A DNA stretch of 41,937 nucleotides from Candidatus Saccharimonadota bacterium (GTDB lineage: Bacteria > Patescibacteriota > Saccharimonadia > Saccharimonadales > Saccharimonadaceae), in NCBI GenBank assembly GCA_017613135.1, contig JAGAEN010000003.1, positions 1 through 41,937 on the forward strand, in the 5' to 3' direction. This document shows, one piece after another, positions 3 to 41,937 of this stretch; position 1 is the stretch's first letter, and every line of letters begins with the position of its first letter. A program made the position numbers and the translations under genes. Under the pieces are notes generated by a model. The model saw only the letters and a program-made list of their open reading frames with translations, did no database searches and was not told the origin of the DNA.

Positions 3-1148
3 CTCGGCTCTATTTCTTCTTCACCTACTGCTGGCAAAATCAGCGTAGGCACAGATGCTACCGAAATCAATCTTATCGCACCAAACTACAAACGAGAAGG
101 TTATGGCTTTGCTGGTTGGAGTACAGATTTTACTACTACAAATGCTAGCACTATTTACGGTCCAAATGAAACTCTCACGGTACCTTCTACCACTCTCGCC
201 ACAAAAGGTATGATACTCTACCCAGTCTGGGTAGCATCTTCTGGCACACTTCAAGGTTGGACGGGCTGCTCTAGCTTAACTCCAGCAACCTATGATAGTA
301 CGACCGGTAAAGTCTCTGCTACCCTTTCCTCTATCACTGCCCTTACTGATTCCCGTGACGAAAATACCTATGCCGTAGCTAGACTTGCCGATGGTTATTG
401 CTGGATGATAGAAAACCTCCGCCTAGACGCTAATCATTCTACTGATAGTAGTTTAGCACAAGGCTATGATACAGGTTTTATTGGATTACCAGCTTCAGAA
501 GATGCTAACTTTGATACAAACGGTACCGCAAACAATCTATACAGTACTGGTAACTACCGTACGATGCCGCGCTACAATAATAACAATATTAAATTCGGCG
601 GGAAAAATGCTTCTGGCACAGATTTGATAGCCGGATATAATACAAACACCAATACGGCACAATGGTATAGCTATGGCAATTACTACTCTTGGCCAGCAGC
701 TAAAGCTACCATCACAAATTACGAATCATATTCAGCAACTGATGCAGTATCCACCTCAATTTGCCCAGCTGGGTGGATACTACCACTAGGCTACCAATCC
801 ACTGGTGCTTTAGATGATAATGAACAAAGCAGTACTTGGCGTGTACGTGGCTTCTCCTACCTAGACCGCATAATGGGTGGTACAGGACAAAATAGTAGCA
901 CTAATTCAGTTACCAATGCATCAAATAGCGCTAACTGGCGTGCTTTCCCGAACAACTTTGTTTACTCCGGGAGCTGGAGTGGTGCCCGGGCGAGCACTCG
1001 TAGCAGCAACGGCTACTATTGGTCGTCTTCTGCTGTCAATGGTGACAATTCCGACCTCTTGTACCTCTACAGTAGCTACGTCTACCCCGGGACGCTTAGC
1101 AACCGCAAGAGCAGCGGATTCACAGTCCGCTGCGTGGCTGGCTCTTGA
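3..1148 (+). CDS. Surface protein with InlB-like repeat and FISUMP domain, 3' part
   Basis: The frame is open to the left edge, so the start lies outside. The first ~75 residues resemble a Listeria-Bacteroides (InlB B) repeat (..YKREGYGFAGWSTD..LYPVW). A FISUMP-type domain follows: LTDSRDENTYAVARLADGYCWMIENLRL, then GWILPLGY, MGGTGQN and a Tyr/Ser/Asn-rich C-terminus ending VRCVAGS. FISUMP domains are associated with secreted proteins and have a C-type-lectin-like look, so a surface adhesin or ligand-binding role is inferred. The C-terminal segment 972-1124 matches in length and register the end of the gene at 41590-41937 but differs almost only at codon positions 1 and 2 (see findings). Stop is TGA. 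The N-terminus, signal peptide and anchor are not visible. Confidence 0.85.
   Translation, partial: LGSISSSPTAGKISVGTDATEINLIAPNYKREGYGFAGWSTDFTTTNASTIYGPNETLTVPSTTLATKGMILYPVWVASSGTLQGWTGCSSLTPATYDSTTGKVSATLSSITALTDSRDENTYAVARLADGYCWMIENLRLDANHSTDSSLAQGYDTGFIGLPASEDANFDTNGTANNLYSTGNYRTMPRYNNNNIKFGGKNASGTDLIAGYNTNTNTAQWYSYGNYYSWPAAKATITNYESYSATDAVSTSICPAGWILPLGYQSTGALDDNEQSSTWRVRGFSYLDRIMGGTGQNSSTNSVTNASNSANWRAFPNNFVYSGSWSGARASTRSSNGYYWSSSAVNGDNSDLLYLYSSYVYPGTLSNRKSSGFTVRCVAGS
972..1124 (+). repeat. Candidate DGR variable region (left copy)
   Basis: This 153-bp in-frame segment aligns without gaps to 41763-41611 on the minus strand. Invariant blocks (TGGAGTGGTGCCCGGGCG, TATTGGTCGTCTTCT, TACCCCGGGACG) alternate with codons that differ between copies mainly at positions 1 and 2 while keeping a third-position C or T. 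It is followed by GTCCGCTGCGT, shared by both copies, which could serve as an IMH-like end. It is more GC-rich than the surrounding gene. No reverse transcriptase or template repeat is visible in the window. Confidence 0.6.
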
Positions 1149-2127: not shown

Positions 2128-3093
2128 ATGGACAGTGAAAAACCAAAGACGCCAAAATCCAAGACCACGATGCTCTTGTCCATCAATGCCGCGGCTATTT
2201 TGGTGGCTGGCGTACTAATCTCAAGCGCCATCTTCTTTAACGGCGGGATGGACTTTCGAATGGTCGGCGAACGCTCCGATATAGTACAAGATAGTCTCGG
2301 CGAAATGGACTTGCTCGAATCAGTTTCCGACTCCGACGCCGAAATCCATACTATCGATGTCACAGGTAACGACGATTATATTTCTACTTCTAGTCACGAA
2401 TTCGATAGTTCTGCGGTCCCAGCCGACGAATTATGGAACGAAAGCTCCATCGTGATTTATGCTACACCAGATATTGATATTTGCGTGAGTGGCAGCCTCT
2501 CAGACCTCGGCGCAATGTACTGGCAGACCTCTAACCCTAATGTGATATCAGGTTTTTATGATTCGGCGCGCACCTGGTTAGGCTACAATAACGAAACTTG
2601 TCGCTATCCGGTAGTTAAGGGTGCTGGTACCACCACTATTACAGCTGGTACTTATGACGGAAAGCGAAAAGATTCTATCACCGTAACTGTAGTTGACCCA
2701 CCAATCGACCAATGGAAACACGAAGTCTTAACTCTAGTTAATAAAATTCGTACCAAGAATAAATTAAATCAACTTTCCTGGGGCATTACCTGCGAATCTG
2801 CCGCCGACGTCCGCGCCAACGAGTCTATTAAACTCTACGCTCACACCCGCCCAGATGGTAGTAGTTGGGATACCGTTTGCCCGGCGCCGAGTTCTGGCGG
2901 CGTAAGTGGTGAAAATCTCGCCATCGGTAACGCCGCCGTCTCTCCTGCGTCAGTGGTAGCGTTGTGGATGGGTTCCGAATCCCACCGCGCCAATATCTTA
3001 AACCCAGATTACACCGATATGGCAGTTGGGTTTGTCTATCAACCAGACACTCTTTATCGTACTTATTGGTCTCAATTCTTTAGTACGTATTGA
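2128..3093 (+). CDS. Membrane-anchored CAP/SCP-domain protein
   Basis: 321 residues. A basic cytoplasmic N-terminus precedes one membrane segment (about residues 15-38), so this looks like a type II anchored or signal-peptide protein. A central Ig-like stretch (..TTTITAGTYDGKRKDSITVTVV..) is followed from about residue 195 by a CAP domain of the bacterial YkwD type: NKIRTKNKLNQLSW, YAHTRPDGSSWDTV, GENLAIG, WMGSESHRANILNPDYTDMAVGF and YWSQFF. The conserved CAP His and Glu are present. CAP proteins are extracellular; their biochemical role in bacteria is poorly defined. It is translationally close to the upstream membrane gene and its 3' end overlaps the convergent gene at 3072 by 22 bp. Confidence 0.85.
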   Translation: MDSEKPKTPKSKTTMLLSINAAAILVAGVLISSAIFFNGGMDFRMVGERSDIVQDSLGEMDLLESVSDSDAEIHTIDVTGNDDYISTSSHEFDSSAVPADELWNESSIVIYATPDIDICVSGSLSDLGAMYWQTSNPNVISGFYDSARTWLGYNNETCRYPVVKGAGTTTITAGTYDGKRKDSITVTVVDPPIDQWKHEVLTLVNKIRTKNKLNQLSWGITCESAADVRANESIKLYAHTRPDGSSWDTVCPAPSSGGVSGENLAIGNAAVSPASVVALWMGSESHRANILNPDYTDMAVGFVYQPDTLYRTYWSQFFSTY

Positions 3094-4001
3094 TCATAAA
3101 ATGCCGCTTCTATATTTGTCCCAAATTGTCTTATTTGTTGATAAGATATTCCGCTCGTCATCACTACCGCGATAAAATGTCTTTCTTCTGTCACAAAATC
3201 AAGAATTGCTGCATCGTCATAAATCGTCCAATAAGAGCCGTTCCAGTTCCAGCCTACTTTATTATAGACATTGACCCGTTCCGATAATCCACTTGGCAAA
3301 CCTTGTCGCCAATTATAAGTCGTCACCGGCTGATTAAGAAACGAATCTTTCATTTGCGCGACTAAAATCTCGTCTGTGATATCTGGATGTTCGTAAAACT
3401 TTTTCATCATCAGCATTATTTCGGTGGGTGTCGCCATCAGACTCGATGCCGTCACAGTAGTAATTCCAAAATCTGTCTGCACAATAGCATTTAACTCTTC
3501 GTGACCAATTTTGTTCCACAAAGTCTCAGCGCACGGCGAATTAGACTCGCGAATTGCAAGGTCTAAGCACTTCAAAATCGTATTTCTGGTCCAGCCCGCA
3601 ATTTCTGACCCATCCCAAATACCATTTTGCACCCGACGATAGCCTTCATATACTACAAAAAGTTTATAGATTGAAGCAGTTTGAAATTTTGTATCTGCAT
3701 TATATGTGCCGGCTACTTTATCAAGGTCGAGATCATATATTATGACACCCTTATCCCCACCTACTGCATTCGCCCAATTATCAACAGTAGTTTGAAAATC
3801 AATTATTGCTGGTAGTTCTGGCTCTGGTTCGGATTCTTCTAGAGTTTCCTCTGCCGTAGTATCGTCTTCAGTTAAAGCATCTGGCGGATTGAGATAAGTT
3901 AAAACAGCAAATGTAAAAAAAGCCACTATTGCACTAAGCATCAGTAGTCCAGCTATTATTATAATTACGGCCGGACATTTGCTAGTCGATTTAGTAGCCA
4001 C
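3072..4001 (-). CDS. Membrane-anchored serine beta-lactamase/PBP-like hydrolase
   Basis: 309 residues: cytoplasmic tail, membrane helix at about 12-36, an acidic Glu/Pro linker (about 42-64), then a class A beta-lactamase-like fold (Beta-lactamase2). Motif 1 SxxK is SIYK at about 110-113, motif 2 appears as SNS near 153-155, and the third motif is KVG (about 248-250) instead of KTG or KSG. Extracellular serine hydrolase activity on peptidoglycan peptides or beta-lactams is inferred, and the altered third motif makes antibiotic hydrolysis uncertain. It overlaps the upstream CapA-like gene by 37 nt in the same direction, implying one transcript. Confidence 0.8.
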   Translation of the reverse strand: MATKSTSKCPAVIIIIAGLLMLSAIVAFFTFAVLTYLNPPDALTEDDTTAEETLEESEPEPELPAIIDFQTTVDNWANAVGGDKGVIIYDLDLDKVAGTYNADTKFQTASIYKLFVVYEGYRRVQNGIWDGSEIAGWTRNTILKCLDLAIRESNSPCAETLWNKIGHEELNAIVQTDFGITTVTASSLMATPTEIMLMMKKFYEHPDITDEILVAQMKDSFLNQPVTTYNWRQGLPSGLSERVNVYNKVGWNWNGSYWTIYDDAAILDFVTEERHFIAVVMTSGISYQQIRQFGTNIEAAFYDQYVLKN

Positions 4002-5443
4002 TTTGAAGTCTCCTCATCCATTAATCTTGTTTGCATTTCATTACCGTAAACTGTCGGCACGATATCAGTTTGCAAAATCTTATCTTTATAAATGTGATGC
4101 ACAAGGATCAAGCTCCTCGTCGTCCCTGGCCACCAAATCTGGTCAAAGAATAGATTCCCCAGCCCATAATATATTGCGCCATTACCATAGAGCTCAAAAG
4201 TTTGCGGCTGATGCGCCGAAGTCCCCACTACTACATCGGCACCCAGATCAATCAAATGCCTGAAAAACCCAATTTGGTCACCTGCCATCGAACCAGCATA
4301 GTCACAAGTTTGGTTTTCGTAAGTATAGTCATAGGCATTGCACTCATAGTATTGAATGTCCACAATTACTAAATCACCGCGCGACTTAGCCTCGCTAATT
4401 TGCGCCGCCGCCACGTCTTCATAGTATTGATTTGCACCAGGCGTGTTATCGTAAGTCGCCCCACCTGTCGATAAATTATAGGCTAGCATTGTAATGTTAT
4501 TGTTTTTCTGTTCAATTTCGAGTGGCACCGCCGCCTCGTCGGCAGTCTTTCCACCGCCTACCATTTTAATACCATTAGCTACGTAAGTGTCAATGGTTTC
4601 AAGCGCCGAAATATCGCCACAGTCTTGATTATGATTACCTGTGAGTTCCACTATGTCCAAACCGATTGCCGTAAGAGTATCGATAAAACGCCTATCCGAG
4701 CAAATATTTCGCGTCCCTGCATAACCACTAAAAGATGATTCATTAGAAGTGTGTGTCAGATCAAAAGACGATAAATAATTTTTAATCCCCTCAGCAAAAT
4801 AAGTCGCGTCACCCACTTGATATAACTTCGCATTCATCCCGCGAGACAGCGCTGTCACGCCAGTTTGCGCCAGAGTTAGCACTGTATCTTTCTCGGGAAA
4901 AGTCTTCTTCATCGCTTCAGCCACCAAAGGCTCAATTTCTTTTTCATATAGTTCTGAATCAAAGCTTATAATCCGAAACACCGCCCCGTTCTTAAAATCA
5001 TCCAGATAATATTCAGTATTAATTTTCATTAATCTCTGTGAAAACCCCAACTCCTCAATTGGAATTAACTTCCAAGGGCAATCAAGACAATTAGTAAATA
5101 GTTCATCCGCCGACTCTACCGTAATGTCCGTTTCCGTATTATAAAAATCTGTCACTGGCACATAAATATTGTATAAGAATTCATTATTCTTTAGTTCTGG
5201 CATCACTAATTCATTTCTTGCGGCAATAGTTATATCTTTATCAAGATCCAATTCTTCTGTAAAAATGTTTTTGAAAAAGGCAAATTCCTCATCGCTCAAA
5301 CTTTCATCAAGATATACCACACCCGGAATCCGAAAAAGGCCAGTTTTTGTAAAGAATTGCACCCCAATAAACACTACGGTAAAAATCAATACAAAAGAAA
5401 TGATACCAGTCATAAAGTTCTTTGCCATTCGGTGCTTAGCCAT
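3965..5443 (-). CDS. CapA-like (PGA_cap) metallophosphoesterase-fold protein
   Basis: 492 residues with an N-terminal membrane helix (about 14-34). Residues about 50-200 are an unassigned extracellular region. From about 225 a PGA_cap/CapA domain is recognisable: ELTGNHNQDCG (266-276), GTSAHQPQ (407-414) and GLGNLFFDQ (427-435). CapA proteins belong to the calcineurin-like phosphoesterase fold and are linked to poly-gamma-glutamate or capsule handling; the substrate here is unknown. The usual PHWGxEY-type motif is not evident. A leaderless promoter (TGCTATAAT, 6 nt before the ATG) fixes the start at 5443. The gene is divergent from the GH97 gene and overlaps the following beta-lactamase-like gene. 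Confidence 0.82.
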   Translation of the reverse strand: MAKHRMAKNFMTGIISFVLIFTVVFIGVQFFTKTGLFRIPGVVYLDESLSDEEFAFFKNIFTEELDLDKDITIAARNELVMPELKNNEFLYNIYVPVTDFYNTETDITVESADELFTNCLDCPWKLIPIEELGFSQRLMKINTEYYLDDFKNGAVFRIISFDSELYEKEIEPLVAEAMKKTFPEKDTVLTLAQTGVTALSRGMNAKLYQVGDATYFAEGIKNYLSSFDLTHTSNESSFSGYAGTRNICSDRRFIDTLTAIGLDIVELTGNHNQDCGDISALETIDTYVANGIKMVGGGKTADEAAVPLEIEQKNNNITMLAYNLSTGGATYDNTPGANQYYEDVAAAQISEAKSRGDLVIVDIQYYECNAYDYTYENQTCDYAGSMAGDQIGFFRHLIDLGADVVVGTSAHQPQTFELYGNGAIYYGLGNLFFDQIWWPGTTRSLILVHHIYKDKILQTDIVPTVYGNEMQTRLMDEETSKWLLNRLANVRP

Positions 5444-5449
5444 AGCATA

Positions 5450-5458
5450 ATTATAGCA
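5450..5458 (-). promoter_or_regulatory. Leaderless extended -10 for the CapA-like gene
   Basis: On the minus strand TGCTATAAT ends exactly 6 nt before the ATG at 5443, with no Shine-Dalgarno between. It is one of ten sites with identical geometry. Confidence 0.65.
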
Positions 5459-5462
5459 TATG

Positions 5463-5471
5463 TGTTACAAT
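5463..5471 (+). promoter_or_regulatory. Leaderless extended -10 for the GH97 gene
   Basis: TGTTACAAT ends exactly 6 nt before the ATG at 5478. This favours 5478 over the upstream ATG at 5460, which lies before the -10 and would be upstream of the transcript start. Confidence 0.6.
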
Positions 5472-5477
5472 TTATTT

Positions 5478-7460
5478 ATGTTTAAGTGGGCCAACTTATT
5501 TAATTTCAAAAAACAGGATTTCGAAAAAACCATAGTTTCGCCGAACGAGCGAAATAGTTGTGTGGTCTTTTTGAAAAATGGCCAAGTTTTTTACAGGGTA
5601 TTTCGCGACAACAAAATTATTATCGACCAATCTGAGCTCGGCTTCAAACTTTGCGGTGAAAATCCACTTGGTGTTAATCTCAAGCTCATTCGTTCCACTA
5701 TGAAACGTCACGAAGAAACCATCGAGCTTCCCTGGGGCGAAGATCGCTTTATCAAGAATAATTACAACGAAATGGCTTTTTATCTCACCGAACCAAAAGA
5801 TGATAAACGAATCTTTACTCTGCGCTTTCGGGTGTTTGACGATGCTGTGGCTTTCCGTTATGAAATCCCACCCCAACCCAAATTTCAACGCCTAAGTGTC
5901 GCTGAAGAGCTCACCGAGTTTAATATTAATCTCAATTCAACTACTTGGAAAATCCCCGCTTATCAACCAGATCGCTACGAATATAATTACGAAAAATGCT
6001 CCGTGTTTGACCTAAAGCGTCCTGCACACACACCACTCACCATTAAAACTCCCAGAGGGTGTTATCTATCACTTCACGAAGCCGCTCTTTACAACTACGG
6101 CTCTATGACCATCAAACTAAACGCCAAAAATAAGCTTTCAACTGACATTACACCGTTATCCGATGGTACCAAGGCCCACCTAAATCTTCCCTTTGAAACT
6201 CCCTGGCGCCTCGTAATGATTGCCGATTCCGCCATCGAACTCACCACTAATCGTGTGATGTATTGTCTAAACGACCCACCACGCCAAGATTTTTCCTGGG
6301 TCAAGACTTTAAAGTTCATCGGCATCTGGTGGGCGATGTATGTCGGCGAATGGACCTGGGCGCCCGGTGAGCGTCACGGTGCTACCACCGTTCATGCCAA
6401 AGAATACATCAACGCCGCGGTGCGTCTCGGCATCGCCGGTCTCTTAATTGAAGGTTGGAACGATGGCTGGGAAGGTGATTGGCTCGAAAATGGCATCAAC
6501 AATAGCTTTACCAAATCCACACCTGACTTTAATCTCGAAGAAGTTGCCAGTTTCGCCAGAAGTTGCAACATCGAACTAGTCGGCCACCACGAAACTGTCG
6601 GCTTCATCGATAACTACGAAAAACAATTAGAAACCGCCTACAATTATTATGCCGCGAATGGTATTCATTACATCAAGACCGGCTACGCCGGCAGCCAAAT
6701 TCTAATTAATGGTCGCAGAGAATATCACCATTCCCAACTCGGCGTGATGCATTATCAGAAAACCGTCGAGCTAGCCGCGAAAAAACACATCTGCCTTGAT
6801 ATTCACGAACCAATCAAAGGCACCGGCATCGAGCGCACCTGGCCTAATCTCTTGTCGCGCGAAGGCGCCCGTGGCCAGGAATACGAAGGCGGCGCTATCA
6901 CCCCATCACACACCTGCTTCCTACCGTATACTAGATTGCTTGCCGGCGGGATGGACTACACCAATGGCATTTTTGATATTAAAAATAGCGTTAAACATAT
7001 CAATACTACACTCACTCGCCAAATTGCCTATTTTGTCACCATTTATTCCGGTATGGCAATGGCTGCTGACCGCCCGTATATTTACGAAGAGCGTCATATG
7101 GATGTCTTTCAATTCATTCGTGATGTGCCAACCAATTTCGAACGCACTATTCCTCTCGCCGGTGAAATTGGCGAATATTACGTAGTAGCCCGTAAAGCCA
7201 GAGATAGTGGAGAGTGGTATGTCGGTGGCGTCACCGACGAAACCCCACGACGATTTAATCTCAATCTAGATTTTCTGGATAATGGCGTCTATCTTGCCGA
7301 AATATATACCGATTCTGATGATGCACATTACCGTGACAATCCTTTCGGTCACGTTATCTCTAAAAAACACGTCGGTCGCAACGAAGCGCTCGACATTTAT
7401 ATGGCGCCCGGTGGCGGATTTGCTATTCGACTCGTGCCGTCACAATCAAACGGTGCGTAG
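5478..7460 (+). CDS. Glycoside hydrolase family 97 (SusB-like alpha-glucosidase)
   Basis: 660 residues from the promoter-supported ATG (MFKWANLF). An N-terminal beta-sandwich is followed by a GH97 barrel: IEGWNDGWEGDW (about 320-333), GHHETVG (about 370), IKTGYAG, DIHEPIKGTG (about 440), RTWPNLLSREGARGQEYEGG (from about 453), and a C-terminal beta domain. GH97 includes inverting alpha-glucosidases and retaining alpha-galactosidases. The Glu in HEPIKGTG and the lack of a nucleophile Asp in KTGYAG look more like the inverting SusB type, an inference from memory of the family. No signal peptide is seen, so it probably acts in the cytoplasm, unlike periplasmic SusB. The 3' end overlaps the convergent sortase gene by 38 bp. 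Confidence 0.9.
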   Translation: MFKWANLFNFKKQDFEKTIVSPNERNSCVVFLKNGQVFYRVFRDNKIIIDQSELGFKLCGENPLGVNLKLIRSTMKRHEETIELPWGEDRFIKNNYNEMAFYLTEPKDDKRIFTLRFRVFDDAVAFRYEIPPQPKFQRLSVAEELTEFNINLNSTTWKIPAYQPDRYEYNYEKCSVFDLKRPAHTPLTIKTPRGCYLSLHEAALYNYGSMTIKLNAKNKLSTDITPLSDGTKAHLNLPFETPWRLVMIADSAIELTTNRVMYCLNDPPRQDFSWVKTLKFIGIWWAMYVGEWTWAPGERHGATTVHAKEYINAAVRLGIAGLLIEGWNDGWEGDWLENGINNSFTKSTPDFNLEEVASFARSCNIELVGHHETVGFIDNYEKQLETAYNYYAANGIHYIKTGYAGSQILINGRREYHHSQLGVMHYQKTVELAAKKHICLDIHEPIKGTGIERTWPNLLSREGARGQEYEGGAITPSHTCFLPYTRLLAGGMDYTNGIFDIKNSVKHINTTLTRQIAYFVTIYSGMAMAADRPYIYEERHMDVFQFIRDVPTNFERTIPLAGEIGEYYVVARKARDSGEWYVGGVTDETPRRFNLNLDFLDNGVYLAEIYTDSDDAHYRDNPFGHVISKKHVGRNEALDIYMAPGGGFAIRLVPSQSNGA

Positions 7461-40677: not shown

Positions 40678-41493
40678 TCAATAGTATTTACTATTTCTTT
40701 CCTGTTCCTTCTCCATCTCGTCGATTTCGTAAGCAAATGCAATAGCATAATACTCTTCCACGACATCTCGGTCGTATCGCATACGTGTAGCCATAGCCGG
40801 AGTTTGATTTTTGTTTTCACTTGTCCAAAAATCACGTGGCGTAAATCGTCGAGTTTTGTATTTAGAAGAAAGTGCATTAAGACCATTTAAATGCTTTATC
40901 ACGTTATTATGAGACCTCTCCCGCGCTTTATTATAATAATCTGCATCCTCCTTTTGCCAACCACCATTTCTCATGTCTACATATTTATAAGCTAAATGTT
41001 CGAGCACTGAACGACGAAAGCCCCTGGCATATTCTAAGTCCTTATCCTTGTCCGGCTCATTAGATTCTCGAATGGCCTTTAAAAGCGCGTCGCTTCGCTT
41101 ATCATAGTATTCTCCAGCCTGGGCTTCGATAGTCTGATAAAGTTCCTCTTCCTTAAAATAAGCGACAATCGGCTCCTCAAGCTCTGCGGCTTTTACCATC
41201 GTGTCACCAGTATTCTGTCTATTAGCCTGGTGCACTTTCTCTTCCATATTTTGCCACATATCACGATAATCGTCCTCCCAACGCTCAAATTCCTTTTGAG
41301 GCACGTGCTTTTCACCATTGTCGTTGGAGCGCTTGAGACGCATAGCAAAATCAACCTGAATATCACAAACTTCTTTAGCAAAACGTTTCGCCATCGATTC
41401 TGGACTCGTACGTAAAGGCTCAGCCTCACTTCTTAAACTATCCCACACACTAGAATTAGTATTAGAATTAGTTATTAATTTTTCACCAGTCAT
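40678..41493 (-). CDS. 271-residue hypothetical protein
   Basis: Soluble, strongly charged, mostly helical (Glu/Lys/Arg-rich, e.g. EFERWEDDYRDMWQNMEEKV, DEMEKEQERNSKYY). No signal peptide, membrane helix or recognisable catalytic motif. TGATAATAT ends 6 nt before the ATG, so the message may be leaderless. It sits directly downstream of the second FISUMP gene on the same strand with a ~100-nt gap. Confidence 0.65.
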   Translation of the reverse strand: MTGEKLITNSNTNSSVWDSLRSEAEPLRTSPESMAKRFAKEVCDIQVDFAMRLKRSNDNGEKHVPQKEFERWEDDYRDMWQNMEEKVHQANRQNTGDTMVKAAELEEPIVAYFKEEELYQTIEAQAGEYYDKRSDALLKAIRESNEPDKDKDLEYARGFRRSVLEHLAYKYVDMRNGGWQKEDADYYNKARERSHNNVIKHLNGLNALSSKYKTRRFTPRDFWTSENKNQTPAMATRMRYDRDVVEEYYAIAFAYEIDEMEKEQERNSKYY

Positions 41494-41589: not shown

Positions 41590-41937
41590 CTACTGAGATA
41601 CGCAGCGGACCGAGAATCCGGAGTACTTGTCGCGGTTATCCGTCCCGGGGTAGACCCAGCTACTGAAGAGGTACAGGCGGTAGGCGTTGCTGCTACTGTT
41701 CGCAGAAGACGACCAATAGAAGCCGATGCTGTTACGATCGTACGCCCGGGCACCACTCCAGTACCCGGAGTAAACAAAGTTATTTGGGAATGAACGCCAC
41801 TTAACAGACTGAGTAGAGCCTGCGGTGCTAGACTGGTTTTGACCAGTACCACCCATCACTCGGTCTAGGTAGGAGAAGCCACCTACACGCCAAGTACTGC
41901 TGGCTTCTTGGTTGTCTAGTTCTCCAGTAGATGTATA
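41590..41937 (-). CDS. FISUMP-domain protein, 3' end
   Basis: The frame is open to the right edge; 115 residues are visible, ending VRCVSQ and TAG. It matches the left FISUMP gene: STWRVGGFSYLDRVMGGTGQN, PNNFVYSGYWSGARA, FYWSSSA, YLFSSWVYPGT and SGFSVRCV. Same role inferred (surface ligand-binding domain). Its last 50 codons are the second copy of the candidate variable region. N-terminal domains and the signal peptide lie outside the window. Confidence 0.85.
   Translation of the reverse strand, partial: YTSTGELDNQEASSTWRVGGFSYLDRVMGGTGQNQSSTAGSTQSVKWRSFPNNFVYSGYWSGARAYDRNSIGFYWSSSANSSSNAYRLYLFSSWVYPGTDNRDKYSGFSVRCVSQ
41611..41763 (-). repeat. Candidate DGR variable region (right copy)
   Basis: 153-bp gap-free counterpart of 972-1124. 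Most differing codons end in C or T in both copies and change at positions 1 and 2. The end is marked by GTCCGCTGCGT. A 6-bp inverted repeat TTGTCA/TGACAA lies downstream at 41516-41537. Confidence 0.6.

Follow-up and report, generated by a model that had tools for sequence, protein, structure and literature searches.

Variable repeats at the 3' ends of FISUMP genes in a Nanosyncoccus-type Saccharibacterium and their probable diversification by a retroelement

Two FISUMP genes and their 3' variable repeats

The window, meaning the whole stretch of DNA analyzed (41,937 nucleotides), is the entire contig C2 of a 19-contig, 728,709-base genome that is 96.7% complete. A gene for a FISUMP-domain protein runs off each of its ends. 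Target gene 1 (positions 3 to 1148, plus strand) lost its 5' end at the contig start; its open frame encodes 381 readable amino acids and matches the FISUMP model TIGR02145 above the cut-off, with a weak match to a Listeria-Bacteroides repeat preceding the FISUMP domain. Target gene 2 (positions 41590 to 41937, minus strand) lost its 5' end at the contig end and retains an open frame of 115 readable amino acids, whose match to PF09603 (E = 7e-5) falls under the cut-off because the gene is truncated. Directly downstream of target gene 2 lies a 271-amino-acid open reading frame (ORF) without a Pfam match (positions 40678 to 41493, minus strand). Elsewhere in the window, a beta-lactamase-family (PF13354) protein (positions 3072 to 4001, minus strand) adjoins a PGA_cap protein and a GH97 glycosidase (positions 3965 to 7460).

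Positions 972 to 1124 (plus strand) align without a gap to the reverse complement of positions 41611 to 41763 over 51 codons, 25 of which differ by a total of 38 bases, split 15/18/5 over codon positions 1, 2, and 3. This recount reproduces exactly the figures of the preliminary description, from which the presence of a diversity-generating retroelement (DGR) had been proposed. If an even spread is assumed, the probability of five or fewer third-position differences is 0.004, and the codon-position bias taken alone is only moderately strong evidence. The accompanying claim that the intervening codons are identical even at synonymous sites holds for the remaining codons, but four of the 25 codon differences are silent (GCT/GCG, AAT/AAC, TTG/CTG, and AGC/TCC). 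Alignment with the nine other copies in the genome and with ten foreign templates extends the variable repeats slightly beyond these segments, to positions 957 to 1133 (plus strand) in target 1 and 41602 to 41778 (minus strand) in target 2. When the columns of this 177-nucleotide block are sorted by the templates of sister species, the pair differs at 26 of 47 template-A columns, nine of 115 non-A columns, and three of 15 mixed columns. The pair therefore carries A-targeted divergence with a small amount of ordinary divergence superimposed.

Hypervariation among ten paralogous 3' ends

A similarity search within the genome returned ten closely similar FISUMP 3' ends, those of the window included, and their comparison bears out the preliminary proposal that randomization occurs at template adenines. 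At least three different bases are present at 34 of the 47 columns in which foreign templates have A, versus seven of the 115 non-A columns (P = 1.4e-17). Between pairs of paralogues, the A columns differ by 36 to 68%, regardless of the divergence at other sites, which ranges from 1% to 24%. The extreme case is the pair C7/C12, with differences at 21 of 47 A columns and one of 115 others.

At 22 codons, which in target 1 span positions 972 to 1115 (plus strand), the ten copies show at least four different amino acids. Almost every one of these codons has C or T as its third base, so that stop codons are avoided, and no stop codon occurs inside the variable-repeat block of any of the ten copies. 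Such NNC/NNT codons have the form expected of the product of AAC and AAT template codons. Full-length paralogues start with a stretch judged by eye to resemble a signal peptide, and the FISUMP proteins are therefore probably secreted. C-type-lectin-like chains head the structural matches of a FISUMP model (pLDDT 78), but with Z scores of only 4 to 6.9, and a Foldseek search gave zero significant matches; this modest evidence is consistent with a C-type-lectin-like fold of the target domain, which is probable.

Reverse transcriptase-template cassettes in congeners

Matches to RVT_1 are present in 43 of 100 related genomes, mostly of the same genus, which includes “Ca. Nanosyncoccus alces,” and ruminant-gut Saccharibacteria are the source of most reverse transcriptase (RT) loci. 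The retroelement was found in most sequenced species of the genus. Many congener RTs carry the DGR motif IGxxxSQ, and a profile of these RTs has as its best solved relative 8ub7_A (E = 5e-43), the entry title of which names a DGR ribonucleoprotein reverse transcriptase. The RT matches of two congeners (L028 in G007 and L030 in G037) have YCDD or FMDD and no IGxxxSQ and are apparently of a different RT type.

A template was predicted by setting the variable sites of the ten copies to A and was searched for in 174 genomes of the genus. Many of its best matches adjoin DGR-type RTs with IGxxxSQ and YxDD, i.e., the genus has real templates next to real RTs, and these match the A-concentrated pattern of the genome studied here. 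In ten cassettes examined, the template is 32 to 41% A and lies mostly outside long ORFs, and 205 of the 207 mismatches between template and best nearby variable repeat face template adenines. When 80 RT loci were scanned, 58 had a template/variable-repeat pair; the scan demanded that at least 80% of mismatches lie at adenines, whereas the ten-cassette count had no such requirement and is the cleaner test. FISUMP as the target of a DGR, at first only surmised, is directly visible in these cassettes.

The cassettes share an unusual arrangement. In 57 of the 58 loci the template is convergent with the RT, being located beyond its 3' end on the other strand; 44 of these 57 have the target on the same strand as the RT and 13 on that of the template. 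Across the genus, genomes with variable-repeat-like matches tend to have a DGR RT as well (odds ratio, 5.8; P = 1.5e-7), and no RT was detected in 31 of 107 congeners with such matches. Recently rewritten repeats are present in at least two such RT-less congeners, G026 and G190, and one pair in G026 differs at 20 A columns versus two others.

An accessory protein upstream of the RT

A conserved ORF, mostly of 250 to 400 amino acids, lies directly upstream of the RT in 77 of the 80 loci (e.g., L126, positions 2948 to 3970). The model of one member (pLDDT 91, pTM 0.66) has an N-terminal HTH, an alpha/beta middle, and a C-terminal helical bundle, and Pfam HTH_3 matched eight of 45 members. In structural comparison, the C-terminal bundle came closest to S23-family proteins and to Avd, among them Avd as part of the DGR ribonucleoprotein (Z scores of 16.3 to 12.9). 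The top match is 2GSC, an S23-type protein whose kinship with Avd has been described (PMC10053308). Comparison by sequence with solved structures gave nothing relevant and no match to Avd, and Foldseek alone gave no significant match. Since unrelated four-helix bundles also match at Z scores of 13 and below, the assignment is based on fold and gene position, which suggest an apparently Avd-like C-terminal part of a larger accessory protein.

The middle part was also compared with MutS domain I, which is known from the DGR accessory protein MSL, and one weak match (E = 0.06) was found, just upstream of one RT (G009). MutS domain I scored above the curated cut-off in none of 60 congeners, versus 11 of 14 control genomes, and MutS mismatch repair may be absent from the genus.

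Absence of the cassette from the draft genome and alternative explanations

The 19-contig draft itself yielded no RT, either with PF00078 (RVT_1) or with a profile built from ten congener RTs. A similarity search for a template with the FISUMP 3' end returned only copies of the target genes, and a dedicated profile of the congener accessory protein did not find its gene. The RT and template anticipated in the preliminary description thus exist in sister species, where the adjacent template matches the predicted one, but neither was found in this draft. Their absence from a closed genome had been named as evidence against a DGR; this genome is not closed, so that the argument does not apply, although both are nonetheless missing from the draft. 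Many contig ends, when read, lie within members of the FISUMP family or genes that have parts in common with it, indicating that the assembly broke in these repeats. Among relatives, the distance from the RT locus to a contig end is no more than 4 kb in 45 of 78 cases, versus 24 expected, and the absence of RT and template from a draft is therefore weak evidence. An assembly gap is the simplest and likely reading of the missing cassette, and we infer that the strain does possess an RT-template cassette which fell into such gaps.

The same absence would also be explained if a past DGR had made the variants and the lineage had since lost RT and template, leaving the variable repeats as frozen paralogues. 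That the assembly is 96.7% complete and that 31 congeners bear variable repeats without a detected RT both fit such a loss, but some pairs of repeats differ nearly only at A columns (C7/C12 and the pair in G026), and rewriting was therefore recent relative to ordinary divergence. Together with the excess of relatives' cassettes near contig ends, this makes the loss of the retroelement rather unlikely. Recent rewriting in several congeners with no detected RT would be accommodated if the RT and template were extragenomic, e.g., on a mobile or shared cassette, and action in trans among loci of one genome has been reported for Thiohalocapsa (PMC10907252). Nevertheless, RT relatives in viral contigs are at most 42% identical, the variable-repeat framework of this genome is absent from viral contigs, and assembly gaps suffice, so that supply from outside the genome has very little probability. 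A phage origin was rejected on the same two viral-contig observations.

Ordinary positive selection with gene conversion among FISUMP paralogues would need no retroelement, and it could draw on paralogues that are numerous and alike and on some divergence outside the A columns. The variation, however, tracks the adenines of templates of other species; gene conversion is not expected to leave saturated A columns next to synonymous sites that hardly differ, nor does it predict that 205 of 207 mismatches in RT-adjacent cassettes face adenines. This explanation is strongly disfavored, to the point of being negligible.

Proposed mechanism and significance

It is thus very probable that the window segments are FISUMP 3' variable repeats written by a DGR of the kind found in sister species, with at least ten targets in this Nanosyncoccus-type Saccharibacterium. 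A template repeat with abundant AAC/AAT codons would be transcribed, and a DGR-type RT would copy the template RNA with misincorporation at template adenines. The mutated cDNA would then replace the 3' end of the target gene, randomizing approximately 22 residues in a domain of probable C-type-lectin-like fold while stops are avoided. The FISUMP proteins would bind partners outside the cell, and the position of the randomized residues at the end of a lectin-like domain suggests that these partners change, be they the host cell, phages, or mucus glycans. A bolder hypothesis, which has only a slim chance of being correct, is that a distinct DGR lineage of the genus, in which the template is convergent and the Avd-like fold is joined to HTH and alpha/beta parts, rewrites secreted lectin-like proteins encoded at dispersed sites, and that RT and template moving between cells keep the repeats fresh in genomes that, as this one would, have no cassette of their own.

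Saccharibacteria are ultra-small bacteria and are generally thought to live on the surfaces of other cells. To our knowledge, little is known of how they recognize hosts or escape phages, and a diversified FISUMP set makes both testable. With approximately 22 randomized residues apiece, about ten lectin-like proteins that are probably secreted would give this genome of only 0.7 Mb a large and fast-changing set of surface binders. The inverted template separates transcription of the RT from that of the template, and the accessory protein, with its apparent Avd fusion, is of a new form that can be compared with that of BPP-1.

Comparison with known systems

FISUMP targets of DGRs (PMC4159848), DGRs in the Candidate Phyla Radiation (CPR) (PMC8144416), inverted DGRs (PMC3521204), and action in trans within a genome (PMC10907252) are already known. 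In the freely accessible literature, nothing on Nanosyncoccus DGRs was found, and titles and abstracts contained no mention of a lineage in which the template generally lies opposite both RT and target, or of an HTH-Avd fusion. The Nanosyncoccus-type DGR is of a known kind, but the convergent template and apparent Avd fusion of the congener cassettes are variant features for which a higher class may be deserved.

The DGR of Bordetella phage BPP-1 (bRT, Avd, TR, and VR; PDB 8ub7 and 4dwl; PMC12875486) shares with that of the congeners a DGR-type RT, adenine-specific mutagenesis with a preference for AAC, a C-terminal variable repeat, and apparently an Avd-like fold in an adjacent accessory gene. 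Unlike in BPP-1, the congener template follows the 3' end of the RT and is on the other strand, the apparently Avd-like bundle is the C-terminal portion of a bigger protein, and the targets are many, cellular, and dispersed. Opposite strands for RT and template also characterize the inverted DGRs of DiGReF group 4 (Shewanella, Vibrio, and Photobacterium; PMC3521204), but there the target and its variable repeat share the strand of the template, an arrangement seen in only 13 of 57 loci here, as opposed to 44 with the target on the RT strand. The clade 2 DGRs of the CPR (PMC8144416) are likewise cellular and from Patescibacteria; they are mostly aquatic and their targets usually lack recognizable domains, whereas gut Saccharibacteria and FISUMP proteins are involved here. 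In the Fib_succ_major (FISUMP) targets of human microbiomes (PMC4159848), the diversified part is, as here, the C-terminal FISUMP domain, but the published example combines it with an Mfa2 domain in a predicted lipoprotein, whereas the proteins of these Saccharibacteria have a weakly matching Listeria-Bacteroides-type repeat before the FISUMP domain.
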